Shown: in pieces, positions 11,963-57,188 of the stretch | Position numbering within the stretch: the stretch's first letter is position 1 | How the letters are laid out: every line of letters begins with the position of its first letter | NCBI GenBank assembly: GCA_017623055.1 | Contig: JAGAPX010000046.1 | Span: 1 to 60,375, forward strand | Length of the DNA stretch: 60,375 nucleotides | DNA from: Phascolarctobacterium sp. | Lineage (GTDB): Bacteria; Bacillota; Negativicutes; Acidaminococcales; Acidaminococcaceae | Reading direction: 5' to 3' | The notes under the pieces: generated by a model | Told to the model about the DNA's origin: nothing | Seen by the model: the letters and a program-made list of their open reading frames with translations, nothing else | The model's database searches: none | Position numbers and translations under genes: made by a program

Positions 11963-11986
11963 GTTAAAAATTCCAATTTTATGTTA

Positions 11987-13330
11987 TTACTTTTTATTTT
12001 CTTCCAAGTGTTTCAAGTAAGCTTTGGTTTCAGATACAACTACACCCGTCAAAGCAAGAAGTGCAATCAAGTTAGGAATTGCCATCAAGCCGTTAACGAT
12101 ATCTGCCAGAATCCAGATAGCTTCCAATTTCAGGAAGGGACCGCATGCTACCAAACCAACGAAGATAATGCGGTACGGAAGAATTGCTTTAACGCCCATC
12201 AGATACTCAACGCAACGTTCGCCATAGTAGTTCCAGCCCAAAATAGTGGTGAATGCAAAGAGCACCAAGCCAACCATCAAAATAATAGAGCCAAATTCCG
12301 GATAAACAGAGCTAAATGCTTGGTCAGTCATTGCTGCGCCGTTCAGTTCGCCTTGCCATACACCAGTTACTACCAAAGACAAACCAGTCAAGGTGCAGAT
12401 GATGATGGTATCAATAAAAGTACCGGTCATAGAAACGAGACCTTGTTCAGCAGACCATTTAGTTTTTGCAGCAGCTGCTACGATAGGAGCAGAACCTAAA
12501 CCAGATTCATTGGAGAATACGCCACGAGCTACACCACTACGCATTGCCAGCATCATGCCTGCGCCAGCAAAGCCACCTACAGCAGCAGTACCATTGAATG
12601 CGCTGTCAATTACAGTTGCGATTGCAGTAGGAACTTGGTCAGCGTTAGCAACTAAGATGCCAACGGTGGAAATCAAATAGATAACTGCCATACCGGGAAC
12701 AATTTTTTCTGCAACGCTAGCAATGGATTTCAAACCACCAATGGTTACAACTGCAACTACTATGGTGAGTGCGATACCAGTATAAACAACCGGAATACCA
12801 GCGGAGATTTGAGTGATTTCTACGATGGAGTTAACTTGTGCGAAGGTACCAATGCCAAAGAACGCACACATTACACCGAAAGCTGCAAACATAACTGCCA
12901 AAGGTTTGTATTTCTCACCCATACCTTTTTCGATGTAGTACATGGGACCACCGGAGATATTGCCGTTGTCATCCACAGTACGATATTTAACTGCCAACAA
13001 ACATTCTGCGTATTTAGTTGCCATACCAAAGAATGCCGCAACCCACATCCAGAACAATGCACCAGGACCACCCATCTTAACAGCAGTCGCTACACCAACG
13101 ATGTTACCGGTACCAACGGTAGCTGCCAAAGCAGTACACAAAGCTTTAAAGCTACTTACATCGCCTTCGCCCTCACTTTTCGCACCAAAGATAAGCTTCA
13201 AAGCAGGAATAAGCTTAAAAACTTGAATAAGGTTCAAGCGGATGGTAAGCCAGATACCGGTACCAACTAAAAGGATAAGCAGCGGAGGACCCCAGACAAA
13301 GGAGTCAATTTGGTTGAGCAGGTCTAACAT
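11987..13330 (-). CDS. Sodium:alanine/glycine symporter (AGCS family), copy 1
   Basis: This inner-membrane transporter of the alanine or glycine:cation symporter family takes up small amino acids with Na+. The 447-residue protein has about ten hydrophobic segments and family motifs: FKALCTALAATVGTGNIVG, GGPGALFWMWVAAFFGMATKYAE, GLGSAPIVAAAAKTKWSAEQG and TTILGWNYYGERC. The upstream tandem glycine riboswitch strongly suggests glycine as the natural substrate (inference from context). It is the first of three tandem paralogs; copy 2 is very close along its whole length, copy 3 less so. Confidence 0.94.
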   Translation of the reverse strand: MLDLLNQIDSFVWGPPLLILLVGTGIWLTIRLNLIQVFKLIPALKLIFGAKSEGEGDVSSFKALCTALAATVGTGNIVGVATAVKMGGPGALFWMWVAAFFGMATKYAECLLAVKYRTVDDNGNISGGPMYYIEKGMGEKYKPLAVMFAAFGVMCAFFGIGTFAQVNSIVEITQISAGIPVVYTGIALTIVVAVVTIGGLKSIASVAEKIVPGMAVIYLISTVGILVANADQVPTAIATVIDSAFNGTAAVGGFAGAGMMLAMRSGVARGVFSNESGLGSAPIVAAAAKTKWSAEQGLVSMTGTFIDTIIICTLTGLSLVVTGVWQGELNGAAMTDQAFSSVYPEFGSIILMVGLVLFAFTTILGWNYYGERCVEYLMGVKAILPYRIIFVGLVACGPFLKLEAIWILADIVNGLMAIPNLIALLALTGVVVSETKAYLKHLEENKK

Positions 13331-13383
13331 TTTTCATTACCTCTTTCTTTTTTATAAATACTCTCTCATGTTTTAGGTAAGTA

Positions 13384-13421
13384 AATAGAAAAGCCAGAGC
13401 ATATAAAAATATACTCTGGCT
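13384..13421 (-). terminator. Terminator in the glycine riboswitch expression platform, copy 1
   Basis: On the minus strand GCCAGAGTATA and TATGCTCTGGC pair around an AT loop and are followed by TTTTCTATTT. It lies between the aptamers and the symporter start, so it can act as the switchable terminator of the leader. Confidence 0.75.
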
Positions 13422-13502
13422 GAAAAAACAAACTTGTATAATCATCCTCGCAGGCATACCAAATAAATATACCCGTTTCGGAATGTATCATCATATTGTT
13501 TT

Positions 13503-13663
13503 TGCTCTGTCCTTTGGCCTGAGAGATAAGGATACTTGATCCGTGCACCTTCGGCGCCCATTTAAGGGACTCTCCAGAGTTGTGTCCATATACGGTTCCG
13601 TTTCCTGAGAAACACCTGAGAGTTTTGCTCCTTCGGTAGACCGTAAGGTCTTCTCCCATATAC
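13503..13663 (-). promoter_or_regulatory. Glycine riboswitch (tandem gcvT-type), copy 1
   Basis: Read on the minus strand, aptamer 1 starts GGGAGAAGACC with a CCGAAGGAGC element and is followed by aptamer 2 with ACTCTGGAGAGTCCC, GGGCGCCGAAGGTGCACGG and ATCTCTCAGGCCAAAGGAC. These are the conserved cores of the tandem glycine riboswitch. It controls AGCS copy 1. The sequence is almost the same as the leader at 15.3-15.5 kb, so leader and gene were probably duplicated together. Confidence 0.94.
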
Positions 13664-13694
13664 TTCATCCACTCAATATTTACTTACGAGGAAT

Positions 13695-13722
13695 ATTGTA
13701 GCACAATATCTAGAAAATGCAA
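13695..13722 (-). promoter_or_regulatory. Sigma-70 promoter of glycine riboswitch copy 1
   Basis: On the minus strand TTGCAT, a 16-bp spacer and TACAAT stand just upstream of the first aptamer. Confidence 0.65.
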
Positions 13723-13807
13723 GAGCTTTTATCACAAGATTTTCTAAAATATGACATAGCAACAGGCACCTTACTTATAACTATAAAAAAAAGATTATCC
13801 ACATACA

Positions 13808-13840
13808 AAAAACTGCACCCCTTGCGGAGTGCAGTCTAAG
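13808..13840 (-). terminator. Intrinsic terminator of the second AGCS symporter gene
   Basis: On the minus strand ACTGCACTCC and GGGGTGCAGT pair around a short loop, followed by TTTTTTG, 15-20 bp after the stop codon of AGCS copy 2. Confidence 0.85.
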
Positions 13841-13854
13841 TTTTTAACTAATTA

Positions 13855-15195
13855 TTATTTATCTTCTTCCAAATGTTTCAGATAAGCTTTGGTTTCAGAT
13901 ACAACTACGCCACTCAGGAGAACAAGAGCAACCAAGTTGGGGAATGCCATCAAGCCGTTGCAGATATCGGACAGAACCCAAATTTCTTCCAATTTCAGGT
14001 AAGGGCCGCATGCTACCAGCACGATGAAGATTACGCGATACGGGAGAATACCTTTTACGCCTACCAAATATTCTACACAGCGTTCGCCATAGTAGTTCCA
14101 GCCAAGAATAGTGGTGAATGCAAAGAGGGACAAGCCAATCATGAGCAGGATAGGACCAACGTTGGAATAAGTGCTGGAGAATGCTTGGGAAGTCATTGCT
14201 GCACCGTTAACGTCACCGCACCATACGCCAGTTACGATTAAGGAAAGACCAGTAAGAGTACAAATGATGATGGTATCGATGAAGGTACCGGTCATGGAAA
14301 CGAGACCTTGTTCAGCGGACCATTTGGTTTTTGCTGCTGCCGCTACGATAGGAGCAGAACCTAAACCGGATTCATTGGAGAAAATACCGCGTGCGATACC
14401 ACTACGCATAGCCAGCATTACGGAAGAACCTAAGAAACCGCCTGCTGCTGCAGTAGGATTGAACGCGCCATTAATAACCATGGAGATTGCGTTGGGAAGT
14501 TGGTCGATATGAGTAGCGATAATACCAAGAGTGCAAACGAAGTAGATACCAGCCATGGTAGGAACTACCATTTCGGAAACGTTAGCGATGGATTTAATAC
14601 CGCCAATGGTAATAACTGCTACCAAAATGGTAAGCGCGATACCGGTGTAGCCAGTGGGGATACCAGCTGCGATTTGAGTAATTTCTACGATAGAGTTAAT
14701 TTGTGCGAAGGTACCAACGCCTAAGCAAGCACTGCCGATACCGAAGATTGCAAACAAAACTGCCAAGAATTTAAAGTTTTGACCTAAGCCCATTTCGATG
14801 TAGTGCATCGGGCCACCGGCGATATTGCCGTTTTTGTCAACTTTACGGAATTTAACTGCCAGTAAGCATTCTGAGTATTTGGTAGCCATACCGAAGAAAG
14901 CTGCCAGCCACATCCAGAACAATGCACCAGGACCACCTGCTTTAAGAGCAGTAGCAACACCTACGATGTTACCGGTACCAACGGTAGCTGCAAGAGCAGT
15001 ACAAAGAGCTTTAAAGCTGTTAACGTCGCCTTCGCCGTCACTTTCAGCAGAGAAGATAAGTTTCAGAGCCATGGGAAGTTTCATAACTTGGATTAAGCCC
15101 AATCTTACGGTGAGCAAAATACCGGTGCCAAGTACCAAGATAATCAGTGGCAAGCCCCATACATAACCATTAATTGTGTTTAAAGTGTCTAACAT
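13855..15195 (-). CDS. Sodium:alanine/glycine symporter (AGCS family), copy 2
   Basis: This is the second tandem AGCS symporter, 446 residues, near-identical in layout to copy 1, with the same FKALCTALAATVGTGNIVG, GLGSAPIVAAAAKTKWSAEQG and TTILGWNYYGERC motifs and a matching C-terminal VVVSETKAYLKHLEE. It also lies behind a tandem glycine riboswitch and its own terminator, so it forms an independent glycine-responsive unit. Glycine uptake is inferred from the riboswitch. Different kinetic properties of the two copies are possible but cannot be seen from sequence. Confidence 0.94.
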   Translation of the reverse strand: MLDTLNTINGYVWGLPLIILVLGTGILLTVRLGLIQVMKLPMALKLIFSAESDGEGDVNSFKALCTALAATVGTGNIVGVATALKAGGPGALFWMWLAAFFGMATKYSECLLAVKFRKVDKNGNIAGGPMHYIEMGLGQNFKFLAVLFAIFGIGSACLGVGTFAQINSIVEITQIAAGIPTGYTGIALTILVAVITIGGIKSIANVSEMVVPTMAGIYFVCTLGIIATHIDQLPNAISMVINGAFNPTAAAGGFLGSSVMLAMRSGIARGIFSNESGLGSAPIVAAAAKTKWSAEQGLVSMTGTFIDTIIICTLTGLSLIVTGVWCGDVNGAAMTSQAFSSTYSNVGPILLMIGLSLFAFTTILGWNYYGERCVEYLVGVKGILPYRVIFIVLVACGPYLKLEEIWVLSDICNGLMAFPNLVALVLLSGVVVSETKAYLKHLEEDK

Positions 15196-15241
15196 TTTTT
15201 CCTCTCCCTTATAAATAAATTTCTCTCATGTTAGATAAGTA

Positions 15242-15273
15242 AATAAAAATGCCAGAGCATATACATACTCTGG
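15242..15273 (-). terminator. Terminator in the glycine riboswitch expression platform, copy 2
   Basis: On the minus strand CCAGAGTATG and CATGCTCTGG-like arms form a hairpin followed by CATTTTTATTT, between the aptamers and the start of AGCS copy 2. Confidence 0.75.
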
Positions 15274-15311
15274 TTTGATTGCAAAACGCCAATAAAATAC
15301 CAACGCTTGCG

Positions 15312-15472
15312 TTCTCTGTCCTTTGGCCTGAGAGATAAGGATGCGTAATCCGTGCACCTTCGGCGCCCATTTAAGGGACTCTCCAGAGTTGTGTCTGCGA
15401 GCGGTTCCGCTTTGTTAAAAGCACCTGTGAGTTTTGCTCCTTCGGTAGACCGTAAGGTCTTCTCCCACACGC
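15312..15472 (-). promoter_or_regulatory. Glycine riboswitch (tandem gcvT-type), copy 2
   Basis: The same two aptamer cores as in copy 1 are present on the minus strand: GGGAGAAGACC / CCGAAGGAGC / GGAACCGC for aptamer 1 and CTCTGGAGAGTCCC / GGGCGCCGAAGGTGCACGG / CTCTCAGGCCAAAGGAC for aptamer 2. The linker and peripheral loops differ in a few places from copy 1. It controls AGCS copy 2. Confidence 0.94.
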
Positions 15473-15503
15473 TTCATCCACTCATTATTTACTTATGTGT
15501 TTT

Positions 15504-15531
15504 ATTATAGCACTTTTTGTAAAATACGCAA
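15504..15531 (-). promoter_or_regulatory. Sigma-70 promoter of glycine riboswitch copy 2
   Basis: On the minus strand TTGCGT, a 16-bp spacer and a consensus TATAAT lie just upstream of the first aptamer. Confidence 0.7.
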
Positions 15532-15597
15532 GTGTTTCTTCACATTTTTGTTATGTATACAATACACTACTTACACAAATTAGAAAATAGAAAAAAC

Positions 15598-15634
15598 AAA
15601 GAGGACTCCCGATTTTTTCTCGGAAGTCCTGTAA
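15598..15634 (-). terminator. Intrinsic terminator of the third AGCS symporter gene
   Basis: AGGACTCCCGA and TCGGAAGTCCT arms with a T-rich loop form a strong hairpin 17 bp after the stop codon. An almost identical hairpin lies on the other side of this gene at 17.2 kb. Confidence 0.75.
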
Positions 15635-15650
15635 AATTTGAAACAATTTT

Positions 15651-17033
15651 TTATTTGCCTTCAGCTTTAAGCTCTTTAAAATGAGCTTTTCTTTTGCGAA
15701 CCTCGCCCCAATATTCAAAGTAACGCTTGGTTTCTGCAACTACTACCCCACTCAAACCGATAAGCGCGATTAAGTTGGGAAGCGCCATCAAACCGTTAAC
15801 AATATCTGCAATAACCCAAATGGTTTCTAATTTCAGGAAAGCACCACAGCCTACAAGGGCAATGTAAACGTAACGGTAAGGCATAATACCTTTAACGCCT
15901 ACAAGATACTCCATGCAACGCTCGCCATAATAGCTCCAGCCAATAATGGTAGTGAACGCAAAAAGTACCAAGCCACTGGTCAACAAATATTTTGCTGCAA
16001 AGGGGAACGCTGCGGAAAAGGCTGCTTCAGTAAGTGCAGCACCGTTTACGTCGCCACACCATACGCCAGTTACAATCAAGGAAAGACCAGTCAAAGTACA
16101 AATGATGATGGTATCAATGAAGGTACCAGTCATAGAAACAAGACCTTGCTCAGCAGGCCACTTGGTTTTCGCAGCAGCTGCTACGATGGGCGCACTACCC
16201 AAGCCTGCTTCGTTGGAGTAAATACCACGAGCAATACCACTGCGCATTGCCAGCATCATTGTCGCACCAAGGAAACCGCCAGTTGCCGCAGTACCGGTAA
16301 AGGCACTATCCAAAACAAGCTTAATTGCAGGAATAACTTGGTCAGAGAACACACAAAGGATAGAAACAGTGGTAATGATATACAGCACTGCCATAAAAGG
16401 TACAATCTTACTTGCTACATTGGCAATGGATTGCAAGCCACCAATAATGATGAAAGCAACAAGTACGGTAAGCACGCCTGCAGTATAAAGCACAGGCAAA
16501 TCAAAGGACACATTCAAAATAGAAGTAATTGCATTGACTTGGGTAAAGGTACCGGAGCCTAAAGCAGCAGTCATTACGCCAAAGATTGCAAACATTACTG
16601 CCAAAGGTTTAAACTTTTTACCTAAACCGTTTTCGATATAGTACATGGGACCGCCGGAAGCGTTACCATTTTCGTCAATAATACGATATTTAACAGCAAG
16701 CACGCCTTCTGCATACTTGGTTGCCATTCCGAAGAAAGCAGCAAGCCACATCCAGAAGAGTGCACCCGGACCACCTGCTTTTACCGCAGTTGCTACACCT
16801 ACAATATTACCAGTACCTACGGTTGCCGCAAGGGCAGTACACAAAGCTTGGAAACTGTTGATGTCACCGCTACCTGTGTTTCTGGCGGCAAAAATGAGCT
16901 TTAGTGCCATGGGAAGCTTGAACACTTGCAACAAGTTCAAGCGAATGGTAAGGAGAATACCTGTACCAATCAAAAGAATCATTAAGGGCGGACCCCACAC
17001 AAAGCCATTTACTGTCGTCAAAAATTCTAACAT
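15651..17033 (-). CDS. Sodium:alanine/glycine symporter (AGCS family), copy 3
   Basis: This is the third tandem AGCS symporter, 460 residues, with the family motifs FQALCTALAATVGTGNIVG, GLGSAPIVAAAAKTKWPAEQG and TTIIGWSYYGERC. It is clearly more diverged from copies 1 and 2 than they are from each other and has a longer, basic C-terminus (EVRKRKAHFKELKAEGK). Its leader has a good promoter but no glycine riboswitch, so it is probably regulated differently and may prefer another substrate such as alanine (inference). Confidence 0.93.
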   Translation of the reverse strand: MLEFLTTVNGFVWGPPLMILLIGTGILLTIRLNLLQVFKLPMALKLIFAARNTGSGDINSFQALCTALAATVGTGNIVGVATAVKAGGPGALFWMWLAAFFGMATKYAEGVLAVKYRIIDENGNASGGPMYYIENGLGKKFKPLAVMFAIFGVMTAALGSGTFTQVNAITSILNVSFDLPVLYTAGVLTVLVAFIIIGGLQSIANVASKIVPFMAVLYIITTVSILCVFSDQVIPAIKLVLDSAFTGTAATGGFLGATMMLAMRSGIARGIYSNEAGLGSAPIVAAAAKTKWPAEQGLVSMTGTFIDTIIICTLTGLSLIVTGVWCGDVNGAALTEAAFSAAFPFAAKYLLTSGLVLFAFTTIIGWSYYGERCMEYLVGVKGIMPYRYVYIALVGCGAFLKLETIWVIADIVNGLMALPNLIALIGLSGVVVAETKRYFEYWGEVRKRKAHFKELKAEGK

Positions 17034-25218: not shown

Positions 25219-25245
25219 ATTTTGTCAGTCGCCTGACATTTATAA

Positions 25246-25274
25246 ATATTACCATAAGTCAGAACAAATTGCAA
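25246..25274 (-). promoter_or_regulatory. Promoter of the Asp-Gly-Trp tRNA operon
   Basis: On the minus strand TTGCAA, a 17-bp spacer and TAATAT lie about 27 bp upstream of tRNA-Asp. Confidence 0.55.
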
Positions 25275-25294
25275 GTACTTTTATAAAATATTTT

Positions 25295-25320
25295 CAACAA
25301 CGTTAGATGGTGCTTATGGA
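25295..25320. repeat. Fragment of the long-hairpin repeat, copy F
   Basis: CAACAACGTTAGATGGTGCTTATGG matches the right end of copies A and C with two or three differences. Only the end is recognisable; the left arm has decayed or been lost. It lies 4 bp from the stop codon of the GNAT gene, the same placement as copies A, B and C. Confidence 0.6.
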
Positions 25321-25324
25321 AAAA

Positions 25325-25810
25325 TTAAAACATGATATCGCCAGGTTGGTAGTCGACGGTAGTCTTTACGAAAGCAATCTCACTGCAGTACGGATACTGC
25401 GGGCAATATACACATTCCTTCCAAACTTTTTGAGGAAGCTTTTCTTTCGCAGTTTCAATATAATTGCATTTTGCAAAGAAGCCAGGTTGATAAGTAAGGG
25501 TGAAGAACATTTTTACGCCACGTTCAACGCCTTCTTTTTCCAACAGCTCTACAATCTTTCTGCCAATACCTGTGCATTTAAGTTCCGGGTCTACGGCAAG
25601 GGAGCGAATCTCTGCTAAACGATCCCACACAAAATGCAAAGCACCACAGCCAACTAAATGACTGCCTTGTACGGCAACGATGTAGTCACGCAAGTTCTCA
25701 TAGATTGCGTTACGGGAACGAGGCAACATCAAGCCTTCCTTGGCGTAATCGTTGAGAAGCTTATGGATATTTTCCACATCATCAAATTTTGCTTGTCTAT
25801 ATGTAATCAT
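25325..25810 (-). CDS. GNAT N-acetyltransferase, ArgA-like short form
   Basis: This GNAT-fold acetyltransferase resembles the short N-acetylglutamate synthase-like proteins of Firmicutes. The start at 25810 (MITYRQAKFDDVENIHKLL) overlaps the preceding stop as TAATG and has AGGAGCG upstream. The 161-residue protein has the acetyl-CoA motif LKCTGIGRKIVELLEKEG and a C-terminal KVWKECVYCPQYPYCSEIA region typical of the ArgA-like group. A role in arginine synthesis is a family inference. It is translationally coupled to the hydrogenase-like operon, so it is co-transcribed with genes of no obvious relation. Confidence 0.85.
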   Translation of the reverse strand: MITYRQAKFDDVENIHKLLNDYAKEGLMLPRSRNAIYENLRDYIVAVQGSHLVGCGALHFVWDRLAEIRSLAVDPELKCTGIGRKIVELLEKEGVERGVKMFFTLTYQPGFFAKCNYIETAKEKLPQKVWKECVYCPQYPYCSEIAFVKTTVDYQPGDIMF

Positions 25811-35283: not shown

Positions 35284-36954
35284 ATGCGTAGTATTGAAGT
35301 TAAAAAGGGTTCTACCCGCGCAGCTCACCGCTCCCTGTTCTATGCGATGGGCTATACTGAAGAAGAACTGAAAAAACCGCTCATTGGCGTATGCTGTGCA
35401 GCTAACGAAATTATTCCCGGTCACATGCACCTTGATACCATTGCTCAAGCTGTTAAATACGGTATCCTGGAAGCAGGCGGCACTCCCATCGAGTTCCCTG
35501 CAATTGGTATCTGCGACGGTATTGCAATGGGTCACAATGGTATGAAATATCCTTTGGCAAGCCGCGAGCTTGTAGCTGATAGCGTAGAGGCTGTTGCTAA
35601 CGGCCATGCTTTTGACGCATTGGTACTTATCCCTAACTGCGATAAGATTGTTCCCGGTATGCTCATGGCAGCTGCTCGTCTGAACATCCCCACCGTTGTA
35701 GTAAGCGGTGGTCCTATGCTCCCCGGTCGTCTCAATGGAAAAGACATTAGCGTATCCACCGTATTTGAAGCTGCTGGCCGCTTCGAATCCGGTCAAATTG
35801 GCAAAGCAGAACTGAGCGAAATCGAACATTGCGCTTGCCCCGGTTGCGGCAGCTGCTCCGGTCTCTTTACTGCTAACACCATGAACTGCTTGACTGAAGT
35901 TTTAGGCATGGGCTTGCCCGGTAACGGCACCATTCCCGCTGCTTACAACGGTCAACGTATTGCTCTTGCTAAACACGCTGGTATGGCAGTAATGAACCTT
36001 TTAGAAAAAAATATCCGTCCTCGCGACATTATGACTAAAAAAGCTTTTGAAAACGCAATCACCGTAGATATGGCTATTGGTGGCAGCTCCAACACCGCAC
36101 TTCACTTGCCTGCAATCGCTCACGAAGCTGGCATTGACCTGCCCTTGGAACTTTTCGACAAAATCTCCAAGAAAACTCCGTATCTTACCAAACTTAGCCC
36201 CGGTGGCAGCCACCACATCATCGACCTTAACGAAGCTGGCGGTATCAGCGCTGTTATGCACGAACTTGACAAACTGAAACTTATCAAAAAATCCTGCATG
36301 ACCGTTACCGGCAAAACCATTGGTCAACTTATTAAACATGCAGAAATCACTCGCCCCGATGTTATCCGCACCGTTGAAGACCCCTATCGCAAAACTGGCG
36401 GTATCGCAGTACTCAAAGGTAACATCGCTCCTGAATGCAGTGTAGTTAAAGAAAGTGCTGTTGCAGAAGAAATGCTGGTACACAGTGGTCCTGCTAAAGT
36501 ATTTAACTCCGAAGACGAAGCAATCGCTGCTATCTGCGGTAGAAAGATTGAAAAAGGCGACGTTGTTGTAATTCGCTACGAAGGTCCTAAAGGTGGTCCT
36601 GGCATGCGCGAAATGCTCAACCCCACCTCCGTATTGGCAGGCATGGGTCTGGATAAAGACGTTGCTCTCTTAACTGACGGTCGCTTCTCCGGTGCAACTC
36701 GTGGTGCTTGCATTGGTCATATTTCTCCGGAAGCACGCGAAGGCGGTAACATCGCTCTTATCCAAGACGGAGACATCATCGAAATTGATATTCCCAACCG
36801 CACTTTGAACGTGAAGCTTTCCGAAGAAGAACTGGCTGAACGTAAAGCAGCTTGGGTTTGCCCGCCCCCGAAAGTTAAATCTGGTTACTTGGCTCGTTAC
36901 GCAGCTTTAGTAACTAGTGCAGCTACTGGCGCAGTACTTCGCATCCCTGAATAA
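35284..36954 (+). CDS. ilvD: Dihydroxy-acid dehydratase
   Basis: IlvD dehydrates 2,3-dihydroxy-3-methylvalerate and dihydroxyisovalerate in branched-chain amino acid synthesis, using an iron-sulfur cluster. The 556-residue protein has the family signatures [15 protein letters not shown] and [18 protein letters not shown], which hold the cluster cysteines, and the C-terminal [29 protein letters not shown] precedes the start. It is a single-gene unit with a strong promoter. Its stop codon touches repeat copy B, and a strong terminator follows. Confidence 0.97.
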
Positions 36955-37073
36955 AATTGCTATAAGCGCTGTTATACTTTGTCACAGCTTGCTTACTTGC
37001 TCAACGTACTACCAGTACGCTATCGCTTCATAAGCTTCGCTGTTCCTCGTCTTCCAGCACTTCTACCAATTTT
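36953..37073. repeat. Long-hairpin repeat, copy B (3' of ilvD)
   Basis: This full copy is in the reverse orientation relative to copies A, C and E. The stem base is AAAATTG on one side and CAATTTT on the other, unlike the base of other copies but again self-complementary. Shared blocks include CCAGCACTTCT, CGTACT and the GCTTGCT region. Its first two bases overlap the ilvD stop codon. Confidence 0.82.
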
Positions 37074-37088
37074 TCTAATTTTAATGAA

Positions 37089-37128
37089 ACAAAAAGGATT
37101 GTGCAAAATTTGCACAATCCTTTTTTAT
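37089..37128. terminator. Bidirectional terminator between ilvD and the P-loop/Asp23 gene
   Basis: AAAAAGGATTGTGCAAA and TTTGCACAATCCTTTTT form a near-perfect 17-bp stem with T tracts on both sides. Confidence 0.9.
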
Positions 37129-37131
37129 TGC

Positions 37132-37986
37132 TTATAACACTTTTTCTTTTTTCACAGACAAACTGCGAATTGATACGTTGACATTCTTTACCTGCATCGC
37201 CGTCATATACTCCACCTTCTCCTTAATCTTAGCTTGGAGCTGACGAGTAATGGTAAAAATCTGCACGCCGTAGAAAAGAATTACCTCCATAGAAATAGTA
37301 ATCCCCTTGCTATCAGTACGACGACGAATGCTCACATCCGTTACCTTATCCACGCCCAACATCTTATCCGCGATAAGCATAATGATATTTTCCACAGCAG
37401 TATCTGCAATTAAAAGCTTGCCGTAAAAGCTAAAGGCAGGACGCACGATGGAACGGTCCGCATCTTTTTTCTCACGTCTTTGCTTGGAGAAAATATTGTA
37501 GGGCAAATCCGCAAAGTATCCAGTAAAATGAGGCTTCAGCTCTACAGACGGAACAGGCACAATATGCTTGCCCTCCTGCAAGCGGGAGTGACGTGCTTTC
37601 TTGATTTCCTTCTTTGTCGCAATCTGACTAATATAAACAGTCTTAACAGGCGCTTCAAGGTTAAGACGCTTGGTAATCTTGTTAATCATATTGTCAGAGG
37701 TTGCGATTATCAAAAGGCGACGGATATTATTCTTGCCTAAAGCTTCACGCACCACTCTTGCATGCTCATCATCAGTAAAGATAGCACGCTTAACTGCTTG
37801 TATTCTATTTCCTTCATTCTTAGCAGATGTGCCTGCTAAAATTCTTGTACCCTTAATTAAGAGACCATCGTCAATGATGGCATCACATTTATTATCAAAG
37901 GCAACCCCAATGGCGCGGTGGCTTTTGCCCGTACCGCTTGGGCCTACAAAGGCAACAACTTCCACAACGACCTGCCTGCCTTTCAC
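37132..37986 (-). CDS. P-loop NTPase fused to an Asp23/Gls24-like domain
   Basis: I do not know a characterised member. The N-terminal half holds a P-loop GPSGTGKS at residues 15-22 and an IIDDG strand soon after, then LLIIATSDNMINKI. The C-terminal third (about residues 190-280) resembles the Asp23/YloU fold found in envelope-stress proteins (ADTAVENIIMLIADKMLG, VSIRRRTDSKGITISMEV). The frame starts with GTG directly behind the stop of the PHP gene; a second GTG 18 bp downstream is a possible alternative start. A regulatory ATPase role is only an inference. It is the last gene of a pepA-PHP-ATPase unit. Confidence 0.72.
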   Translation of the reverse strand: MKGRQVVVEVVAFVGPSGTGKSHRAIGVAFDNKCDAIIDDGLLIKGTRILAGTSAKNEGNRIQAVKRAIFTDDEHARVVREALGKNNIRRLLIIATSDNMINKITKRLNLEAPVKTVYISQIATKKEIKKARHSRLQEGKHIVPVPSVELKPHFTGYFADLPYNIFSKQRREKKDADRSIVRPAFSFYGKLLIADTAVENIIMLIADKMLGVDKVTDVSIRRRTDSKGITISMEVILFYGVQIFTITRQLQAKIKEKVEYMTAMQVKNVNVSIRSLSVKKEKVL

Positions 37987-41740: not shown

Positions 41741-41759
41741 AATTTACTCTACTCATTTC

Positions 41760-41879
41760 AAATGCGTCAGAAGTGCCGGATAGCTAGGCGGAATAAAATT
41801 GTGCCGCGCTGGCGTACTAAGCGTACGTCAAGCAAGCAATTTTATGACAACAACGCTAGACGGTGCTTATCACGCATTT
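41760..41879. repeat. Long-hairpin repeat, copy C (3' of dapA)
   Basis: This full copy has the stem base AAATGCGT / ACGCATTT. Compared with copy E, the base pair T-A at the end of the AAGTGCT block is replaced by C-G on both arms (AAGTGCC and GGTGCTT), a compensatory change. Its right end covers the dapA stop codon. Confidence 0.82.
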
Positions 41880-42769
41880 ACCAAGCCATATTCTGCAAGG
41901 ATAGCATCCAATTTAGCCACGCCACCTTCGCTCAACGGAGTCAGAGGCAAGCGCGGAGCACCTGCGTCAATACCGGTAACTTTAGTTACAGCATATTTTA
42001 CAGGGATGGGATTGCTTTCGATGAATAGGGAGTTTGCCAACGGAACAAGCTTCTTGTTCAGTTCAGCAGCTTCTGCAACTTTGCCTTCGCTATACAGTTG
42101 CATTACGTCTTGCAGCATTTGACCACCAATATTGCCAAGAACAGAGATTACGCCACGAGCGCCAACTGCCATGAACGGAAGAACCAAACCGTCATCACCA
42201 CTGTAAATGGTAACGTTTTCAGGAAGAACACGGAAGAGTTCTGCAGTTTGAGCTACATTGCCAGCAGCCTCTTTAACTGCAACGATATTGGGAAACTCTG
42301 CTGCCAAGCGAGCAACAGTTTTCGGTTCGATGTTGGAGCCGGTACGACCGGGAACATTGTAAACGATAATGGGCAGATTAGTGGATTTAGCCACTGCTGC
42401 AAAATGTTGGTAATAACCTTCTTGAGTAGGTTTATTGTAGTAAGGACCTACTACAAGCAAACCATCAACGCCACAAGCTTCTACTGCGTTAATCAATTCT
42501 AATGTACTTGCAGTGCAGTTAGTGCCGGCGCCTACAATTACGGGAGCACGACCGTTAACACGTTCAACTACTGCTTTAAGTACAGCAATCTTTTCGTCCA
42601 TGAACATGGTAGCTGCTTCACCAGTAGAACCTTCTACTACCAAACCATCACTGCCATTTGCCAATAACCATTCTGCAAAATCAGCAGCTGCTTCACAATT
42701 AACACTACCGTCTGCATTAAACGGTGTAACCATTGCAGTTAATAGTCTACCAAAATATGCTTCTGCCAT
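41870..42769 (-). CDS. dapA: 4-hydroxy-tetrahydrodipicolinate synthase
   Basis: DapA condenses pyruvate with aspartate semialdehyde, the first committed step to lysine and diaminopimelate. The 299-residue protein has VEGSTGEAATM, the YYNKPTQEGYYQHF loop, YNVPGRTGSNIEP (active-site Tyr) and the Schiff-base lysine in VAVKEAAGN. It is the last gene of the lysine-riboswitch-controlled dapB-asd-lysC-dapA operon. Its stop codon lies inside repeat copy C, and copy D sits between it and lysC. Confidence 0.97.
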   Translation of the reverse strand: MAEAYFGRLLTAMVTPFNADGSVNCEAAADFAEWLLANGSDGLVVEGSTGEAATMFMDEKIAVLKAVVERVNGRAPVIVGAGTNCTASTLELINAVEACGVDGLLVVGPYYNKPTQEGYYQHFAAVAKSTNLPIIVYNVPGRTGSNIEPKTVARLAAEFPNIVAVKEAAGNVAQTAELFRVLPENVTIYSGDDGLVLPFMAVGARGVISVLGNIGGQMLQDVMQLYSEGKVAEAAELNKKLVPLANSLFIESNPIPVKYAVTKVTGIDAGAPRLPLTPLSEGGVAKLDAILAEYGLVNA

Positions 42770-42793
42770 AATGTATCTCTCCTATCTCCTACT

Positions 42794-42912
42794 AACTTTC
42801 CATAAGCACTGTCTAACTTTGTTGGAACTGCGATTGCTTGCTCGACGTACCACAAGTACGCCTTCACTTCACAATCTTGTTCCGCCTCGTTATTCAGCAC
42901 TTCTGAAAAGTT
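42794..42912. repeat. Long-hairpin repeat, copy D (between lysC and dapA)
   Basis: This full copy is in reverse orientation, with a stem base AACTTTCC / GAAAAGTT that pairs fully with one G-U wobble. Shared blocks include ATAAGCACTGTCTAACTTTG and GCTTGCTCGACGTAC. It fills the 170-bp lysC-dapA gap and will be part of the operon mRNA; it may set off dapA expression from the upstream genes. Confidence 0.82.
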
Positions 42913-42939
42913 TGCGTTTCTCAAAATTTTTAAGCAGTT

Positions 42940-46027: not shown

Positions 46028-46164
46028 TCAGTTCACTCCTTAACTATTTTCAAATTATATGAAACCAGTGTTTTTACTCTTGTTATTATTTTACTAAACT
46101 TCTGTATTTTTTACAAGTACAGTTGTACTGAAAATATTAACTTCTATTTCTTCAAGCTTCGTTT

Positions 46165-46287
46165 AAAACGCGTCAGAAGTGCTGGATAACGCGAAGGAAC
46201 AAAATTGTGCAGCGATGGCGTACTTGAAGTACGTCGAGCAAGCAATTGTAGTTCCGACAAAGTTAGACAGTGCTTATCACGCGTTTT
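46165..46287. repeat. Long-hairpin repeat, copy E (between lysine riboswitch and dapB)
   Basis: This is the best-paired copy: AAAACGCGT at one end and ACGCGTTTT at the other form a perfect 9-bp stem base, followed inward by AAGTGCT pairing with AGTGCTT through two G-U wobbles, and the tip is GTACTTGAAGTAC. It lies directly after the riboswitch terminator and 137 bp before dapB, so every read-through mRNA contains it. Confidence 0.85.
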
Positions 46288-46288
46288 A

Positions 46289-46330
46289 TAAATAAAACAA
46301 GCTGTTGAGATACACTATCTCAACAGCTTT
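46289..46330 (-). terminator. Terminator of the lysine riboswitch
   Basis: On the minus strand AAGCTGTTGAGATA and TATCTCAACAGCTT form a perfect long stem with a short loop, followed by GTTTTATTT. The stem shares TTGAGATAG-like sequence with the 3' side of the aptamer P1 region, as expected for an anti-terminator switch. Confidence 0.88.
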
Positions 46331-46344
46331 GTAGCTTCACTTTA

Positions 46345-46503
46345 GTTGAGATAGCCCTCCGCTCTCACAAGCGACAGTCCGGCAGCTTTCACTGACGACC
46401 CAGCATAGCAACATGGCTGCTACTACACTTCGGCGGTTACCCTTTCCCCTGCTTCTTCGCTCCCGCTCCACAGGTTACTATTGCTTTCCGCGCCTCTATC
46501 TTA
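46345..46503 (-). promoter_or_regulatory. Lysine riboswitch (L box)
   Basis: On the minus strand the conserved L-box cores are present in order: GATAGAGGCGCGGA, AGTAACCTG, GGGAAAGGG, CCGCCGAAGTG, GCTGGGTCGTCAGTGAAAGC, CGGACTGTC, and GCGGAGGGCTATCT closing P1. It should shut off dapB-asd-lysC-dapA when lysine is plentiful by forming the downstream terminator. Confidence 0.95.
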
Positions 46504-46528
46504 CTGGTTCAAATATTTTATTAAAAAA

Positions 46529-50963: not shown

Positions 50964-53900
50964 TTAGAACTTCCAGTTAACGTTAACCATCCATTTATCT
51001 GCTTCAACATTGTCGCCTTTTTGATATTCATAACCCAATGCGTAGCTGATATTAGCTTTTTCTGCTTCCAGCATAAAACGACCTACATAGCTACCGCTAT
51101 CAGTTACGTCATAACCAAAGCCATTGCTTGCACCGTTTAAACTTACGGTTTGGTCAGCATCGGTATCGCCGAATGCCCATACATAACCGAATTCTACTAC
51201 CGGACGCATAGTCCAGCCATTGGTGTTCTTAATATCTGCGCTGTATTTCAAGCCCACAGGCAACAAGAACAGTTCTGCATCGTCAGCATTATAAGCCAAG
51301 CCAATGCTATTGGTGTAGTTACCAGTACCAAGGTGCATATAACGCAAGCCTGCATACGGAACAAGTTTGCCAATGCCAGCCTTAGCTTCTTTTTCTACAC
51401 GAACGCCTACGCTGAATGCATCAGATTCAGGTTCACCAGTGATAACTTTACCGCTGTTACGTTGGGTAATGTCGTGTTCGCCGTGGAGGTAGGATACATC
51501 TGCGATTACAGCAGTATCATCGTTTTGAATGCTACCATATACGCTTGCACCATAGTATTTAGCATCGTTTTCAGTACGAGCTGCTACAGAAGACCCATTG
51601 ATATTGCCATCAACATAAGTCAATGCAGCGCCAACAGTTGCTTTGCCTTCGTTATAAAGGTCAGTGCCAACTACGATACCGTTGTATTGTGCATCATAAG
51701 CGCCTGCACGTTTCAAACCGTCAACGTTTTCTTTGGTGTGTACATAGTGTGCCCAGATATCTTTGTCGTGTTCTTTATCGTTAGCCAAGGACATATGGTC
51801 AGCAACTGCATCAGTCAAGATATTGCTTGCAGCATAAGTAGTATGAGTTACGCCAGCAAGTTCGTTCATAGAACCAATGCTATTCAGAGCGTCAACTTGT
51901 GCATTTCTGTCAACGTTAATGTCTTCATTTGCAGCGGAGTTGAAGATATCAGAGGAAGAACCACCATTAGCAATAGATTCGTCTACAACTTCACCAATGA
52001 TAACGTCATCACCATATACATCATTGACACTTTGAGATACAGCTTTAACATCAAATGCATTACCAGTTGCACTACCTTCAAAGGCAATCAATTTATTGTT
52101 AGTGATGATGTTGTCATCAGCCCAAACAGTACTAATACTAGAACCTGCTAAGATCTTATATTCGCCATCTTTTTGAGCGTTGTTGATATAGAGTTTAGCA
52201 TTATCATTAACGTCAGTTGCGGTTACGTCAGAGATAGCTGCTTTATTAGCAACTTTTTCAGCTTCAACCATCAACAAGGATTTATCAGCAAAGGTTACTT
52301 TACCTGCAGTAACAGTGTAATTATCCGCAGAAGTCAAAGCACCATTAGCAGTAATAGAACCAGCTAGTTTACCTTCAGCATTATTCAAGCTAACAGAATC
52401 AGCAATATAAATAACTGCATTAACGTCACCATTAACAGTGTTGCCATTTTGAGTACCACTACCGAAGGTCAATTCAGTTTCAGCAAATACTGCATGTGCA
52501 GCTTCAAGATTATCTACACCAAAGCTGATAGTAGAGTTTTGTCCTGCTACATAAGCACCATCCAAATTAGCAGCTTCCTTCAAAGCAAATTCGGAACCTT
52601 TGTCAATGCCATCAGCATAAGCAGGATCTAAGAACAAAGTTGCTCCATTAAGTTTAGATTTTTCAGCATGCATTTTACCCGCATGTTCACCACTACCTAA
52701 ATGTACTTTAGCATCTTTATGACCATCGTCTACATGCAAGTTACCAGTTACTTTACCAGTAATAGTAGAGTGTTTATCACCTTGAACTTTAATATCGGCA
52801 TGCAAATGAGAATCTTTTTCTACATTAACAGTACCATTTTCGAGTTCTACGCCATCGGTAATTTTAGTTTGACCTTTAGTATTCAATTGGCTACCTGCAT
52901 TTACATGTACGCTACCATTGAGTTCATATTTAGTATCTTTATTAGCTAACTTGTTACCGATGTTCAGAGTACCATCATGGTCATGATTATGGTCGCCAAT
53001 ACCATCGGTATCATGTGCAGTACCAACAACTACTTTAACAGGTTTATTAGTTTCGCCAGCACTTACCAAATTATCGCAGTCTTCACTACCGCCCAAGGTT
53101 ACAGTTTGATTACCAGTAATAACTGCACCAGTAGAATCCTCACTTAACTTCAGTTGCTTAGCAGCGAAGCCATTAGCAACACTATCTTTAACTACGATAG
53201 TATCATCGCCTGCTTTTACTTGTACAGAACCATCTTCAGGAACCACAGCACCAATAAGAAGGTTATTTTCAGCTTCTACAGTAACTTTATCCAATTGAAC
53301 TTCGTTACCCAAGTTACTAGCTTGGTCAACATTGATAGTGCCTTCCGATTTTTCAACCTCTTCAACAGCAGTTACCAACTTACCAGTCATAACCAGTTTG
53401 GTAGTACTTGCATTGTTGCCATCATATTTGTATGCTTTCATAGCATCATTGATGGAGCTCAAATATTCATAGCTGTAATCATCACTCAAAGAAACAGTAC
53501 CTGCTTTATAGGTAACTTTATCGTCAATAACTTTGTTACCTTCTAAACCAGTAGTAGCTTTAGTATCTTCAGCCACAGTAAATACTTGGTCTGCTTTAGT
53601 TTTAAGTACACCAGTACCATCAATTACAAGCTTACCTTCATTATCTTTGCTAAATATAGAAGCCAAATCTTTGGTTTCTATAGTCGCACCAGTTAAGGAC
53701 ACAGTGCTACCTTTAGCAATGTTCAAGGTGCTAGTAACATTACCAGCAGTCAAGTTCACATTTCCACCGATAACTTTCAATTCACCACTAATATTTCCAC
53801 CAGCAATGTTGATTACACCGTTATTTTCAGTAGCAAATTGTTTATTTGCATCATAAGCAAAGTCGCCAGTTGTAATATTAACAACAGAATCTTCACCGTC

Positions 53901-56900
53901 TGCAACTACTTTGCCATTGAACACAAGATTTGCAGCATCAATATTAACTTCACCGTTTACATTAATCGCATCGCAACCTTCTTTATTGTTTAATGTTAAA
54001 GTTGCTGCCTTAATATTAACATGAGTATCTTTCTCTGCATAAATGCCTCTCTCGGTAGCATTCACTGTAATATCGCTGTCAGAGTTAAGAGTTACATTAC
54101 CACCTAAGCCGTCACCATCTTCATTTATAACGAAATCTACACCAGTAATAGTGCTTACTGTGTCATCATAATCATCATTAATATCATTAGGAAGATGACC
54201 ATCAATAGTAACTACGGCGCCTTTTACACCCTCAGCTGCTTTAACATTGAATTCATCACCAATAATGCCACTTACAGTACTATTTCCTGTTACATACCAA
54301 GTAGCACCTTTTTCCAAGACCAGAGTTGCACCTTTATCTGCATCAGAGTTTTCTTCTCCAACCGCACTTTCAATATTGGTAGCACCAGTATAAGAAGCAT
54401 TTGTACCTTTCAATTTTAAGACAACAACACCATTATTTTCGGTAAAAATATCACCTTTAATATTAGCTGCTGTATTCGCAGTAACATTGATACGAGAATC
54501 TTGACCTTCTGCATACATCATTCCATCAATATTAGCAGTGCCAGCAACAACGTTAACCATGCCACCTTCTTTTGCCTGCAAGCTACTACCAGGTTGATTT
54601 GTGTTTTTGCTAGTAGCATTTACAGTTAAAGTACCAGCAGTAATGTCAACTTTAGAATCTGCATTACCCGCGAATACAGAAATTGCTTCATCTGTAGATG
54701 CAGTTCCTTTACCAGTTGCAGTAATAGAAACAGCCTTACCAGCAGAGCCTAAGCTAACAGAAGAACCTTCTATTGCTTCAACACCATAAGCAGAATTGCC
54801 TTCAGCACCAACGATTACATTACCATTGAAATCTACCTTACCAACGCCATCAGCATATTCACCAGTATAAATACCATACGCTTGACCATCAGAAGAATTA
54901 GCATTGATTGAAACATCAGTGGTATTAGCAGATGTTACAGCCATTGTGTCATATTGCGCATATACACCATACGCTTTAGTTTTGCCTTCTACTTCAATAG
55001 TAACGTTTGTGCCATTAAAATTAGCGCCACCATTATTGGAACCACTAGTCAAAATACCAAATGCTTCACCATTAGATTTTGCAGTTAAATTAGTAGTTTC
55101 TCCCTCAAAAGTAATTTTACTATTAGTATGTTTTTTTGTGTCACTATCAGCATCACCTAACATTCTAACTGCATAAGCATAATCACCAGTAGAAGTTGCA
55201 GTAATGATAGCATCTTTTTCAAAAGTTACATCAGAATATTGGCTATAAATACCTTGCGCATAGTTAGCACCATTTGCAGTAATATTTGCATTACCACCTA
55301 CAGTAACAGTATTACCAGACACAGTAGTTACACCATTTTTAATCTCTTGACCAGAAGCTAATCTAAAGCCAAAGCCATTACCACTTACGGAAGTAGAAGT
55401 AATGGTGGTCGCACCTAAAGTTGCTGTAGATTTATTTTCTAAGTTTATACCATAAGCGGAGCCAGTACCATTATTAGTAACGGTAATATTAGAAGCACCG
55501 TCTAAAGTAACATCTGAACTATTTAATGCATCAACAGCTTTAAGCGCTGTTGCCGATTCAGCTTCTGTTTTTAATTCAATACTAGGTGCCTCTACATAAG
55601 CCATACCCAAATTGTCAGCTTTAACTGCAGCCTCGCTACTAGTTATTTTCAAATAATTAGTAGCATCAACAGTAACACCTGCTTTTTCAGTTGTGGTAGC
55701 ACCTTTATATACATTTATGCCTTTTTTAGCAATAATGTCAATATTATCAGCAACAATATTAATATTACCTTCTACTTTTTCGCCAACCACACCATTATAA
55801 AGGCCTTCACTAGCACTGATAGCTGACGCATTAGGTGCATCTATTCTCAAAGAACCAGACGTAACATTAAGTTTGCTTGCACCTTCATCATTAGGATAAG
55901 TACCAATGCCAATTACAGAATTTGTAGTTTGTGAATTTAAAACAATTTCATTAGCATTAATATTCAGCAATGCTTCATCTTGAGCATAGATACCATTTGT
56001 AAAGTTTTCTATGTGGATTTTATTTGCATTGACATTCATTTCACCTTTGTGAACATGAAAAACAATACTACCCCAACCATCAGCGTTAAAGCTGAAATGT
56101 TCAGTATCAATAATGTTAATAGGTGCCTCTTTCGACCCTAAGTTCATTATGCCATCATTAACATAAAAAATATTTCTATCAACATTTTTTATTTTATTTT
56201 CTGAGGAATCCCAATTCCCATCTAATTTAATAGCATCAAATCCTTTTATGGTTACTACGCCATCTTTACCAGCAGTAAGAGCATTACCTATACCAGCAAC
56301 GCCTGTTACAGTAAGTACATTTTGTCCATTGCCAGTTACTTCAACAGTGCTTCCATTAATAGCTTTCACACCACTATTTTTACCAGCCAACTTAACATCA
56401 CCAGTTGCATTTATATCAATAGTGCTATTTTGGCTTGCTGCCATAACTGCATAGCCATTATAAGTATCGCTTCCAGCATAAGAAGAAGTTAAAGTTACAT
56501 TTTCAGCATTTATTACAATACTATTTTCTTTATTTTTTACACTAGTAACATCTTTGTATGTATAAACTGCATTTTCACCAGCACTTATGGTTACACCGCC
56601 TGCTGTTATATCAACTTTTCCATCCATAGCACCACCAGTATTGATACCATGACCTGTTGCAGTAATAGACAACTCACCCTCAACATCTAAATCTAATTTT
56701 GCACCATAATGCAATTGGATACCATTATTATCGCCACCAGTGACTATTTTCAATCCTGTTGCATGAAGATTCACATTTGGATTCTCATTAACAGCTTCGC
56801 CACCTTGAACATTACCATCAGATTTAGTCACACCAGAAAAAGTCATACCATTACCAGTAACAGTAAGGTCAACATTACCTAATTCAACAACGTCAGAATT

Positions 56901-57053
56901 ACTTACCAAAAAATGATAGTCATTCTTATTTTTATGTGTTGTATTATTTGTCACAACAACAGCTTTTTCTTCCGCCGCCCAAACTTGACCAGTGATAACA
57001 AACGCCATCAATGCGCCAAGTGCCAAGCTTCTTTTAACATCTTTATTAGACAT
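50964..57053 (-). CDS. Giant autotransporter (type V secretion, beta-helix passenger plus beta-barrel)
   Basis: This is a surface-exposed protein secreted by the type Va route. I chose the ATG at 57053 (MSNKDVKRSLALGALMAFVI) because AAGGAAGAAGG lies upstream; an earlier ATG has no such site. The 2029-residue protein has a signal peptide to about residue 26 (VWA cleavage), then about 1700 residues of short beta-helix-like repeats rich in Asn, Thr, Val and Gly (patterns like 'VNITAGxxTVNA'). The C-terminal 260 residues form a 12-strand barrel that begins near DIWAHYVHTKENVDGL and ends MVNVNWKF, with the terminal Phe needed for barrel assembly. A His-rich patch occurs near residue 1355. Adhesion or biofilm roles are family inference. 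Confidence 0.93.
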   Translation of the reverse strand: MSNKDVKRSLALGALMAFVITGQVWAAEEKAVVVTNNTTHKNKNDYHFLVSNSDVVELGNVDLTVTGNGMTFSGVTKSDGNVQGGEAVNENPNVNLHATGLKIVTGGDNNGIQLHYGAKLDLDVEGELSITATGHGINTGGAMDGKVDITAGGVTISAGENAVYTYKDVTSVKNKENSIVINAENVTLTSSYAGSDTYNGYAVMAASQNSTIDINATGDVKLAGKNSGVKAINGSTVEVTGNGQNVLTVTGVAGIGNALTAGKDGVVTIKGFDAIKLDGNWDSSENKIKNVDRNIFYVNDGIMNLGSKEAPINIIDTEHFSFNADGWGSIVFHVHKGEMNVNANKIHIENFTNGIYAQDEALLNINANEIVLNSQTTNSVIGIGTYPNDEGASKLNVTSGSLRIDAPNASAISASEGLYNGVVGEKVEGNINIVADNIDIIAKKGINVYKGATTTEKAGVTVDATNYLKITSSEAAVKADNLGMAYVEAPSIELKTEAESATALKAVDALNSSDVTLDGASNITVTNNGTGSAYGINLENKSTATLGATTITSTSVSGNGFGFRLASGQEIKNGVTTVSGNTVTVGGNANITANGANYAQGIYSQYSDVTFEKDAIITATSTGDYAYAVRMLGDADSDTKKHTNSKITFEGETTNLTAKSNGEAFGILTSGSNNGGANFNGTNVTIEVEGKTKAYGVYAQYDTMAVTSANTTDVSINANSSDGQAYGIYTGEYADGVGKVDFNGNVIVGAEGNSAYGVEAIEGSSVSLGSAGKAVSITATGKGTASTDEAISVFAGNADSKVDITAGTLTVNATSKNTNQPGSSLQAKEGGMVNVVAGTANIDGMMYAEGQDSRINVTANTAANIKGDIFTENNGVVVLKLKGTNASYTGATNIESAVGEENSDADKGATLVLEKGATWYVTGNSTVSGIIGDEFNVKAAEGVKGAVVTIDGHLPNDINDDYDDTVSTITGVDFVINEDGDGLGGNVTLNSDSDITVNATERGIYAEKDTHVNIKAATLTLNNKEGCDAINVNGEVNIDAANLVFNGKVVADGEDSVVNITTGDFAYDANKQFATENNGVINIAGGNISGELKVIGGNVNLTAGNVTSTLNIAKGSTVSLTGATIETKDLASIFSKDNEGKLVIDGTGVLKTKADQVFTVAEDTKATTGLEGNKVIDDKVTYKAGTVSLSDDYSYEYLSSINDAMKAYKYDGNNASTTKLVMTGKLVTAVEEVEKSEGTINVDQASNLGNEVQLDKVTVEAENNLLIGAVVPEDGSVQVKAGDDTIVVKDSVANGFAAKQLKLSEDSTGAVITGNQTVTLGGSEDCDNLVSAGETNKPVKVVVGTAHDTDGIGDHNHDHDGTLNIGNKLANKDTKYELNGSVHVNAGSQLNTKGQTKITDGVELENGTVNVEKDSHLHADIKVQGDKHSTITGKVTGNLHVDDGHKDAKVHLGSGEHAGKMHAEKSKLNGATLFLDPAYADGIDKGSEFALKEAANLDGAYVAGQNSTISFGVDNLEAAHAVFAETELTFGSGTQNGNTVNGDVNAVIYIADSVSLNNAEGKLAGSITANGALTSADNYTVTAGKVTFADKSLLMVEAEKVANKAAISDVTATDVNDNAKLYINNAQKDGEYKILAGSSISTVWADDNIITNNKLIAFEGSATGNAFDVKAVSQSVNDVYGDDVIIGEVVDESIANGGSSSDIFNSAANEDINVDRNAQVDALNSIGSMNELAGVTHTTYAASNILTDAVADHMSLANDKEHDKDIWAHYVHTKENVDGLKRAGAYDAQYNGIVVGTDLYNEGKATVGAALTYVDGNINGSSVAARTENDAKYYGASVYGSIQNDDTAVIADVSYLHGEHDITQRNSGKVITGEPESDAFSVGVRVEKEAKAGIGKLVPYAGLRYMHLGTGNYTNSIGLAYNADDAELFLLPVGLKYSADIKNTNGWTMRPVVEFGYVWAFGDTDADQTVSLNGASNGFGYDVTDSGSYVGRFMLEAEKANISYALGYEYQKGDNVEADKWMVNVNWKF

Positions 57054-57188
57054 AAAAACTACGCCTTCTTCCTTAAATTTTTTATATATTACAAAGCTTC
57101 TGTTTATCACGAAGCTATATAACCAACACCAATAGTTTGTATTTTAAATATAATTTTTACAAATTCGCCATATTTATAGTTATGTTTA

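Follow-up and report, generated by a model that had tools for sequence, protein, structure and literature searches.

Dispersed hairpin elements with variable but self-complementary arms in Phascolarctobacterium and other Negativicutes

The window analyzed here, a 60,375-nt stretch of a Phascolarctobacterium genome (Negativicutes), carries five full copies and some remnants of a hairpin element that consists of a 103-nt core (AGAAGTGC...GTGCTTAT) and two arms of about 10 nt each. These copies are probably non-autonomous, dispersed miniature elements in which the fold is under selection, the double changes in the stem arising through template switching or exchange together with G-U steps and the arms travelling along with the element. 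The family is apparently undescribed and found class-wide; a search of the literature on repeats in Phascolarctobacterium or Negativicutes found no description of the element.

Copies in the window and across the class

Copy E (46165-46287, +; also delimited as 46161-46291) is a 123-base repeat with its core at 46175-46277. It scores 137 bits with covariance model R1 and folds at -54.3 kcal/mol (z = -7.0), the left arm AAAACGCGTC (46165-46174) pairing with the right arm CACGCGTTTT (46278-46287). Copy C (41755-41884, +; 126 bits) has the arms AAATGCGTC/CACGCATTT, and the stop codon of dapA (41870-42769, -; DHDPS by Pfam) lies inside its right arm. In copy B (36948-37078, -; arms AAAAATTGG/GCAATTTT; 125 bits) the right arm starts at the stop codon of ilvD (35284-36954, +; Pfam ILVD_EDD), and copy D (42788-42918, -; 122.6 bits) carries the arms AAACTTTTC/GGAAAGTT.

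The arms of these four copies, as quoted in a sequence-only reading of the window, are present in the DNA and are self-complementary though their letters differ between copies. The T-A to C-G exchange reported there at the end of the AAGTGC block was likewise found (GTGCTG/CAGTGC in copy E, GTGCCG/CGGTGC in copy C), with a third version, GTGCCA/TGGTGC, in other copies, and the G-U pairs of AAGUGCU with AGUGCUU are real and conserved, some G-U or U-G pairs being the consensus. The list of four is extended by a fifth copy, A (2019-2151, +; arms AAAAATTGTT/GGCGTGTTTT; 106 bits), the right end of which adjoins the stop codon of secF (2150-3022, -; Pfam SecD_SecF_C). Its arms are mismatched with each other (fold z -0.7), and it looks like a chimera of two subfamilies, as do several copies elsewhere, including those at L130/L162 and L123/L151, which also have mismatched arms. 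A decayed partial copy of repeat family D6 is located at 25240-25331 (+; right half 25297-25328; 14.7 bits, E 0.26), and a right-end remnant, GCTTATAACACTTTTT (37115-37137, +), lies at the 3' end of the gene at 37132-37986 (-), at a site where the sister genomes G001 and G003 have an intact element. Elsewhere in the window are three tandem sodium:alanine symporter-like genes (11977-17033), 70-84% alike in DNA, the middle one checked against Pfam and at least two of the three preceded by glycine riboswitches (13497-13587, 15306-15396), as well as an autotransporter gene of 2048 residues (50964-57110).

A genome-wide search yielded 24 usable copies, which were aligned without structure; RNAalifold predicted 38 pairs in this alignment, 19 of them with double changes. 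With a covariance model built from the 24 aligned copies, using a short calibration, 30 full copies were found in the genome of the window (G000), 61, 71 and 74 in three sister species, and fewer in genomes of other families. The genomes are MAG assemblies, the named records being Phascolarctobacterium MAGs mostly from roe deer gut. In a sample of the class, matches at E <= 1e-6 were found in 36 of 120 genomes and 24 of 65 genera, often with many copies each, and the relatives in these 36 genomes retain the fold. As in MITEs, the copies are short, non-coding, numerous and dispersed, and they end in inverted repeats (the arms plus AGAAGTGC/GTGCTTAT). A search of plasmids did not find the element, nor did a search of viral contigs with the G032-type pattern; the core motif occurs in one IMG/VR contig (L261:11478-11501), where the searched stretch ends. 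In the distant genome G032, copies on contig C6 (L068 and others) share a conserved 5' extension, AATCCGTTCCACTTATAAACTAGTACGAAGATAG. Elements nearly identical to those of G032 occur in G029, a genome of another family, and this near-identity suggests recent spread. At two contig ends of the sister genome G002 (L141 and L144) the left flank and the element are nearly alike, perhaps through assembly ambiguity.

Arm complementarity and the folding strand

The complementarity of the arms goes far beyond chance. Among 133 distinct copies, with the arms aligned solely by their distance from the core, 1057 of the 1197 cells in arm pairs 1-9 were Watson-Crick, compared to 754 with the right arms shuffled, and the most variable pairs (4, 5 and 6) were Watson-Crick in 120, 120 and 123 copies, respectively, compared to about 60 after shuffling. 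Zero mismatches across eight pairs were seen in 81 copies, where 12 were expected. The pairing extends over 9 bp and ends abruptly, reaching background level from pair 11; the outermost AAA/TTT is constant in most copies while the inner arm positions vary.

A covariation test was among the checks proposed in the sequence-only reading. In a test on 100 ungapped 131-mers, which did not use the structure and in which the null replayed the substitutions of each column on the tree, seven pairs covaried at E <= 0.05 (11-121, 10-122, 9-123, 39-92, 36-95, 29-103 and 24-108), although element trees are affected by exchange between copies. All seven fall on the hairpin axis (position sums 131-132) and show mainly Watson-Crick exchanges, and the first three are in the arms. 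The element thus has covariation above a phylogenetic null, as expected of a structured RNA. In a class-wide set of 52 sequences, 94.7% of the cells were paired and 34 of 38 pairs had double changes, with a covariation score of 0.662 as compared to 0.187 when shuffled and at most 0.109 when slid; in the genus set the score was 0.327, with 0.155 for the control. Because these two alignments were fitted to the model, more weight is placed on the arm test with 133 copies and on the test against the tree null.

On the + strand, departures from Watson-Crick columns were G-U rather than A-C in a ratio of 94:20 in the class-wide set (p = 1e-12), 84:46 in the genus and 60:12 in distant genomes, which makes the tolerance of G-U specific to one strand. 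Since G-U is favored over A-C on that strand, it is the fold of that strand that appears to be selected. If template switching alone kept the inverted repeat perfect, with no selection and with the RNA fold as a by-product, homogenization would be blind to G-T as opposed to A-C, yet the class-wide ratio is about 5:1, and specific G-U pairs as well as unpaired internal-loop motifs are conserved. Template switching is known to act in this way (PMC8794818, PMC8604942), the variable arm pairs (3-6) taken alone show only a small G-U excess (14 vs 6), and orthologous sites include chimeras, cores that are inverted, elements replaced as a whole and arms changed at several bases; as a complete explanation without selection, it nevertheless seems quite improbable.

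Of the 133 genus copies, 130 fold more stably on the + strand, as do 38 of 45 distant copies. DNA parameters also favor the + strand, in 131 of 133 copies, and since they agree in sign, we infer the RNA form of the selected fold rather than read it from these energies, the RNA fold being not fully separable from that of the strand as single-stranded DNA. A DNA fold serving a recombinase or transposase, as in attC, IS200/IS605 and REP elements, would account for the stability under DNA parameters and for the orientation of the elements in G032, which follows the replichore (23:5 and 6:20 on the two sides of dnaA). However, this bias may merely follow gene orientation, as expected if the elements are antisense to mostly co-oriented genes, and a search for Y1 transposase found none in G000, G001 or G003. 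In addition, copies in the genome G033 (L070:1501-1631; L080:1501-1625 and 2406-2530) occupy the transcribed strand of the 23S-5S rRNA spacer and of gaps between tRNA genes, flush with the mature RNAs, a context that is suggestive of RNA. A role of the fold as DNA instead of RNA is therefore rather unlikely, if less so than the absence of selection. The earlier proposal, in which selection maintains the hairpin as RNA, finds good support in the class-wide covariation, the pairs significant against the tree null and the G-U excess on one strand, though a DNA fold of this strand could produce the same signal. The genome G032 also has zero copies in the approximately 1.1 Mb farthest from dnaA.

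Orthologous sites and the origin of the arms

Orthologous occupied sites, recognized by their flanks, amounted to about 50 pairs among the four species, and the 22 comparisons with a core identity of at least 0.88 were scored for arm-pair changes. While 168 cells were unchanged, 9 had changed on both sides with pairing kept, and 5 had changed on both sides and were unpaired in at least one copy; one-sided changes proceeded via G-U in 4 cells and broke the pair in 12. The nine paired double changes come from approximately four loci, so the independent events are few. Compensatory change in place is nonetheless directly visible at sites with a core identity of at least 0.93, where TCG/CGA corresponds to TTG/CAA (L037/L109), CGCG/CGCG to CTCG/CGAG (L111/L165) and a U-G pair to A-U (L129/L176), and where three arm pairs have changed at L060/L136. 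The site of copy E is also occupied in the three sister species, and its orthologue in G001 has both arms altered (AAAACTCGCT/AACGAGTTT).

At other sites, larger parts of the element differ. Inverted cores within the same flanks were found at L041/L132, at L048/L135 and at L050 compared to L111 and L215, which share their arms. Copy D of the window has arms identical to those at the same site in G002 and G003 and an inverted core, and this G002/G003 counterpart has its right end directly at the stop codon of the aspartate-kinase-like gene upstream. At some further orthologous sites the whole element is replaced by a different subfamily with different arms. Template switching has been reported to homogenize the arms of inverted repeats and invert their spacers (PMC8604942) and to yield compensatory changes in RNA stems (PMC8794818). 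These patterns suggest that it may be active at these elements, although exchange between paralogues (gene conversion) would give some of the same patterns. Homogenization of arms with inversion of cores, by either process, was not considered in the sequence-only reading and fits the orthologous sites.

In the explanation favored here, the + strand would form a long hairpin whose internal-loop motifs are conserved and whose arms vary in sequence, and the stem bases would differ between copies because the fold rather than the letters is under selection. Template switching during replication between the inverted arms, the presumed mutational source, would rewrite one arm from the other and could invert the core; exchange with other copies would supply further double changes, and the remaining changes could occur as single steps through G-U intermediates. 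The arms would move with the element instead of being inherited from a palindrome at the target, and the fold would be what the mobilizing machinery recognizes.

An alternative raised earlier, in which the loop of a pre-existing palindrome, such as a terminator stem, receives the element and supplies its complementary flanks, is not supported. At the site L048/L135, the only truly clean empty site, with reading frames read from the sequence itself, G002 has an uninterrupted gene that terminates in ...HLNIPLSYLERGSKK, overlapping the start codon that comes next. The G000 element, with ATCG arms, follows ...HLNIPLSYLK-stop, and the G003 element, with CGCG arms, follows ...HLNIPL and contains a new stop, the two insertions being in opposite orientation and about 12 nt apart. 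The uninterrupted G002 gene end contains no inverted repeat of at least 6 bp, and two independent insertions must therefore have brought or made their own arms. Inheritance of a palindrome would agree with the dyad symmetry of YPAL targets (PMC2229807), with the intrinsic terminator found just beyond the element in 24 of 85 stop-abutting copies and with a short AAACCGCGTTTT palindrome in G001 where G002 has a CGCG-armed element. However, the G001 case could equally be a deletion between the direct repeats formed by CGCG arms, and the terminators past the elements are intact structures distinct from them. Moreover, most copies carry the outermost AAA/TTT as part of the element itself, and compensatory arm changes are seen at occupied orthologous sites, all of which makes inheritance from the target very improbable.

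Other seemingly empty sites are mostly remnants or mini-elements of approximately 30 nt (AAAAnnnGTTAGAAGTGCTTATAACnnnTTTT; L027:1248-1280, L152:157-215, L219 and L222). The mini-elements were considered as pre-insertion targets and set aside, since their loops consist of element sequence and the loss of the segment between the AGTGC repeats at the hairpin base explains them. Occupied, empty, truncated, inverted and replaced sites in the four sister species demonstrate mobility or turnover. No direct repeat beyond the arms exceeded shuffled expectation as a target site duplication, perhaps because the copies are too old.

Placement at gene ends and comparison with known repeats

The right end of the element is placed at the 3' end of an oppositely oriented gene. 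With gene neighbors taken from simple gene calling by codon usage, 98 of 124 copies have a right-hand neighbor that is oriented towards the element, and in 85 of the 124 its stop codon falls in the right arm or within 20 nt of it, as compared to 2 for the left end (p = 5e-23). This stop codon is the host's own, fused to the arm, or located inside the arm or core (TTATAA), so that the C-terminus of the neighbor is altered. Placement is mostly alike in the distant genomes G032, G035 and G029, whereas it is weaker (9 of 31) in another set with cruder gene calls. Exceptions are the inverted copy D and copy E, which in each of the four species is found at one position, behind a lysine riboswitch and before dapB. 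This riboswitch (46344-46506, -) and a terminator, together spanning 46299-46506, adjoin copy E upstream of dapB, and the arrangement of riboswitch, element and dapB is retained in the three sister species.

Such placement raises the question of whether the element is mainly a 3'-end device of the abutted gene, either a terminator or an mRNA-stabilizing hairpin, as proposed for YPAL. The 85 of 124 right ends at a neighbor's stop codon would be in line with this, as would arms that are T-rich on the gene-sense strand and a placement that is often alike in distant families. By comparison, the gene-sense strand folds worse (on average -34.5 vs -49.2 kcal/mol for the + strand). Most Phascolarctobacterium copies have their + strand in antisense to the gene they abut, so the better-folding strand is absent from the mRNA of that gene, which also weighs against selection of the fold as RNA. 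Sites that are empty or remnant in sister species, and the families with weaker placement, further argue against this role, which we regard as unlikely. A SINE-like, RNA-borne element would also account for one-sided placement: the folded + strand RNA would be mobile and would enter by its 3' (right) end at gene 3' ends, antisense, for example through target-primed reverse transcription, across the entire class. This idea is doubtful. Neither RVT_1 nor Y1_Tnp was common to the copy-rich genomes searched.

In overall kind, the element resembles ERIC and YPAL; membership in either family is not claimed, and YPAL was compared by its description. YPAL reportedly inserts closely behind stop codons, and so does the present element, at its right end only. 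In attC sites of integrons, structure is retained while sequence is not, and the fold is strand-specific; the present element also keeps structure over sequence in a strand-specific manner, but its copies have no gene cassettes between them. Like YPAL/RU-2 (approximately 168 bp), it forms a hairpin, is dispersed, is present or absent between relatives and lacks TA termini (PMC2229807). YPAL targets span or adjoin dyad symmetry (PMC2229807), whereas this element entered a gene end without dyad symmetry at the clean G002 site; it further differs in its Negativicutes host, its variable arms, its single orientation with the right end towards the gene and a target duplication that was not detected. 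ERIC/IRU (127 bp, in enterobacteria) and Correia/NEMIS are similar in size, as imperfect palindromes and in their intergenic location, and the RNA fold of ERIC and Correia/NEMIS is thought to act on mRNA (PMC2229807). In contrast to both, the present element has neither TA termini nor target duplications, its outer flanks are variable and lack the TA duplication of ERIC, and the letters of its arms vary freely. It shares with Rfam families the character of a structured RNA with covariation, but no match above the curated thresholds of Rfam release 15 was found, whether at the window element or among the distant copies.

Taken together, we consider the element a mobile miniature element with a selected fold, probably recognized by the mobilizing machinery, and cis effects on the neighboring gene would be a by-product or a later use. 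The hundreds of paralogous and orthologous copies provide a natural test bed for whether partners in RNA stems change by slow compensation or by one-step template switching. New stop codons and C-termini arise from the one-sided placement at gene ends, which calls for a targeting mechanism that the enzyme families searched do not explain.
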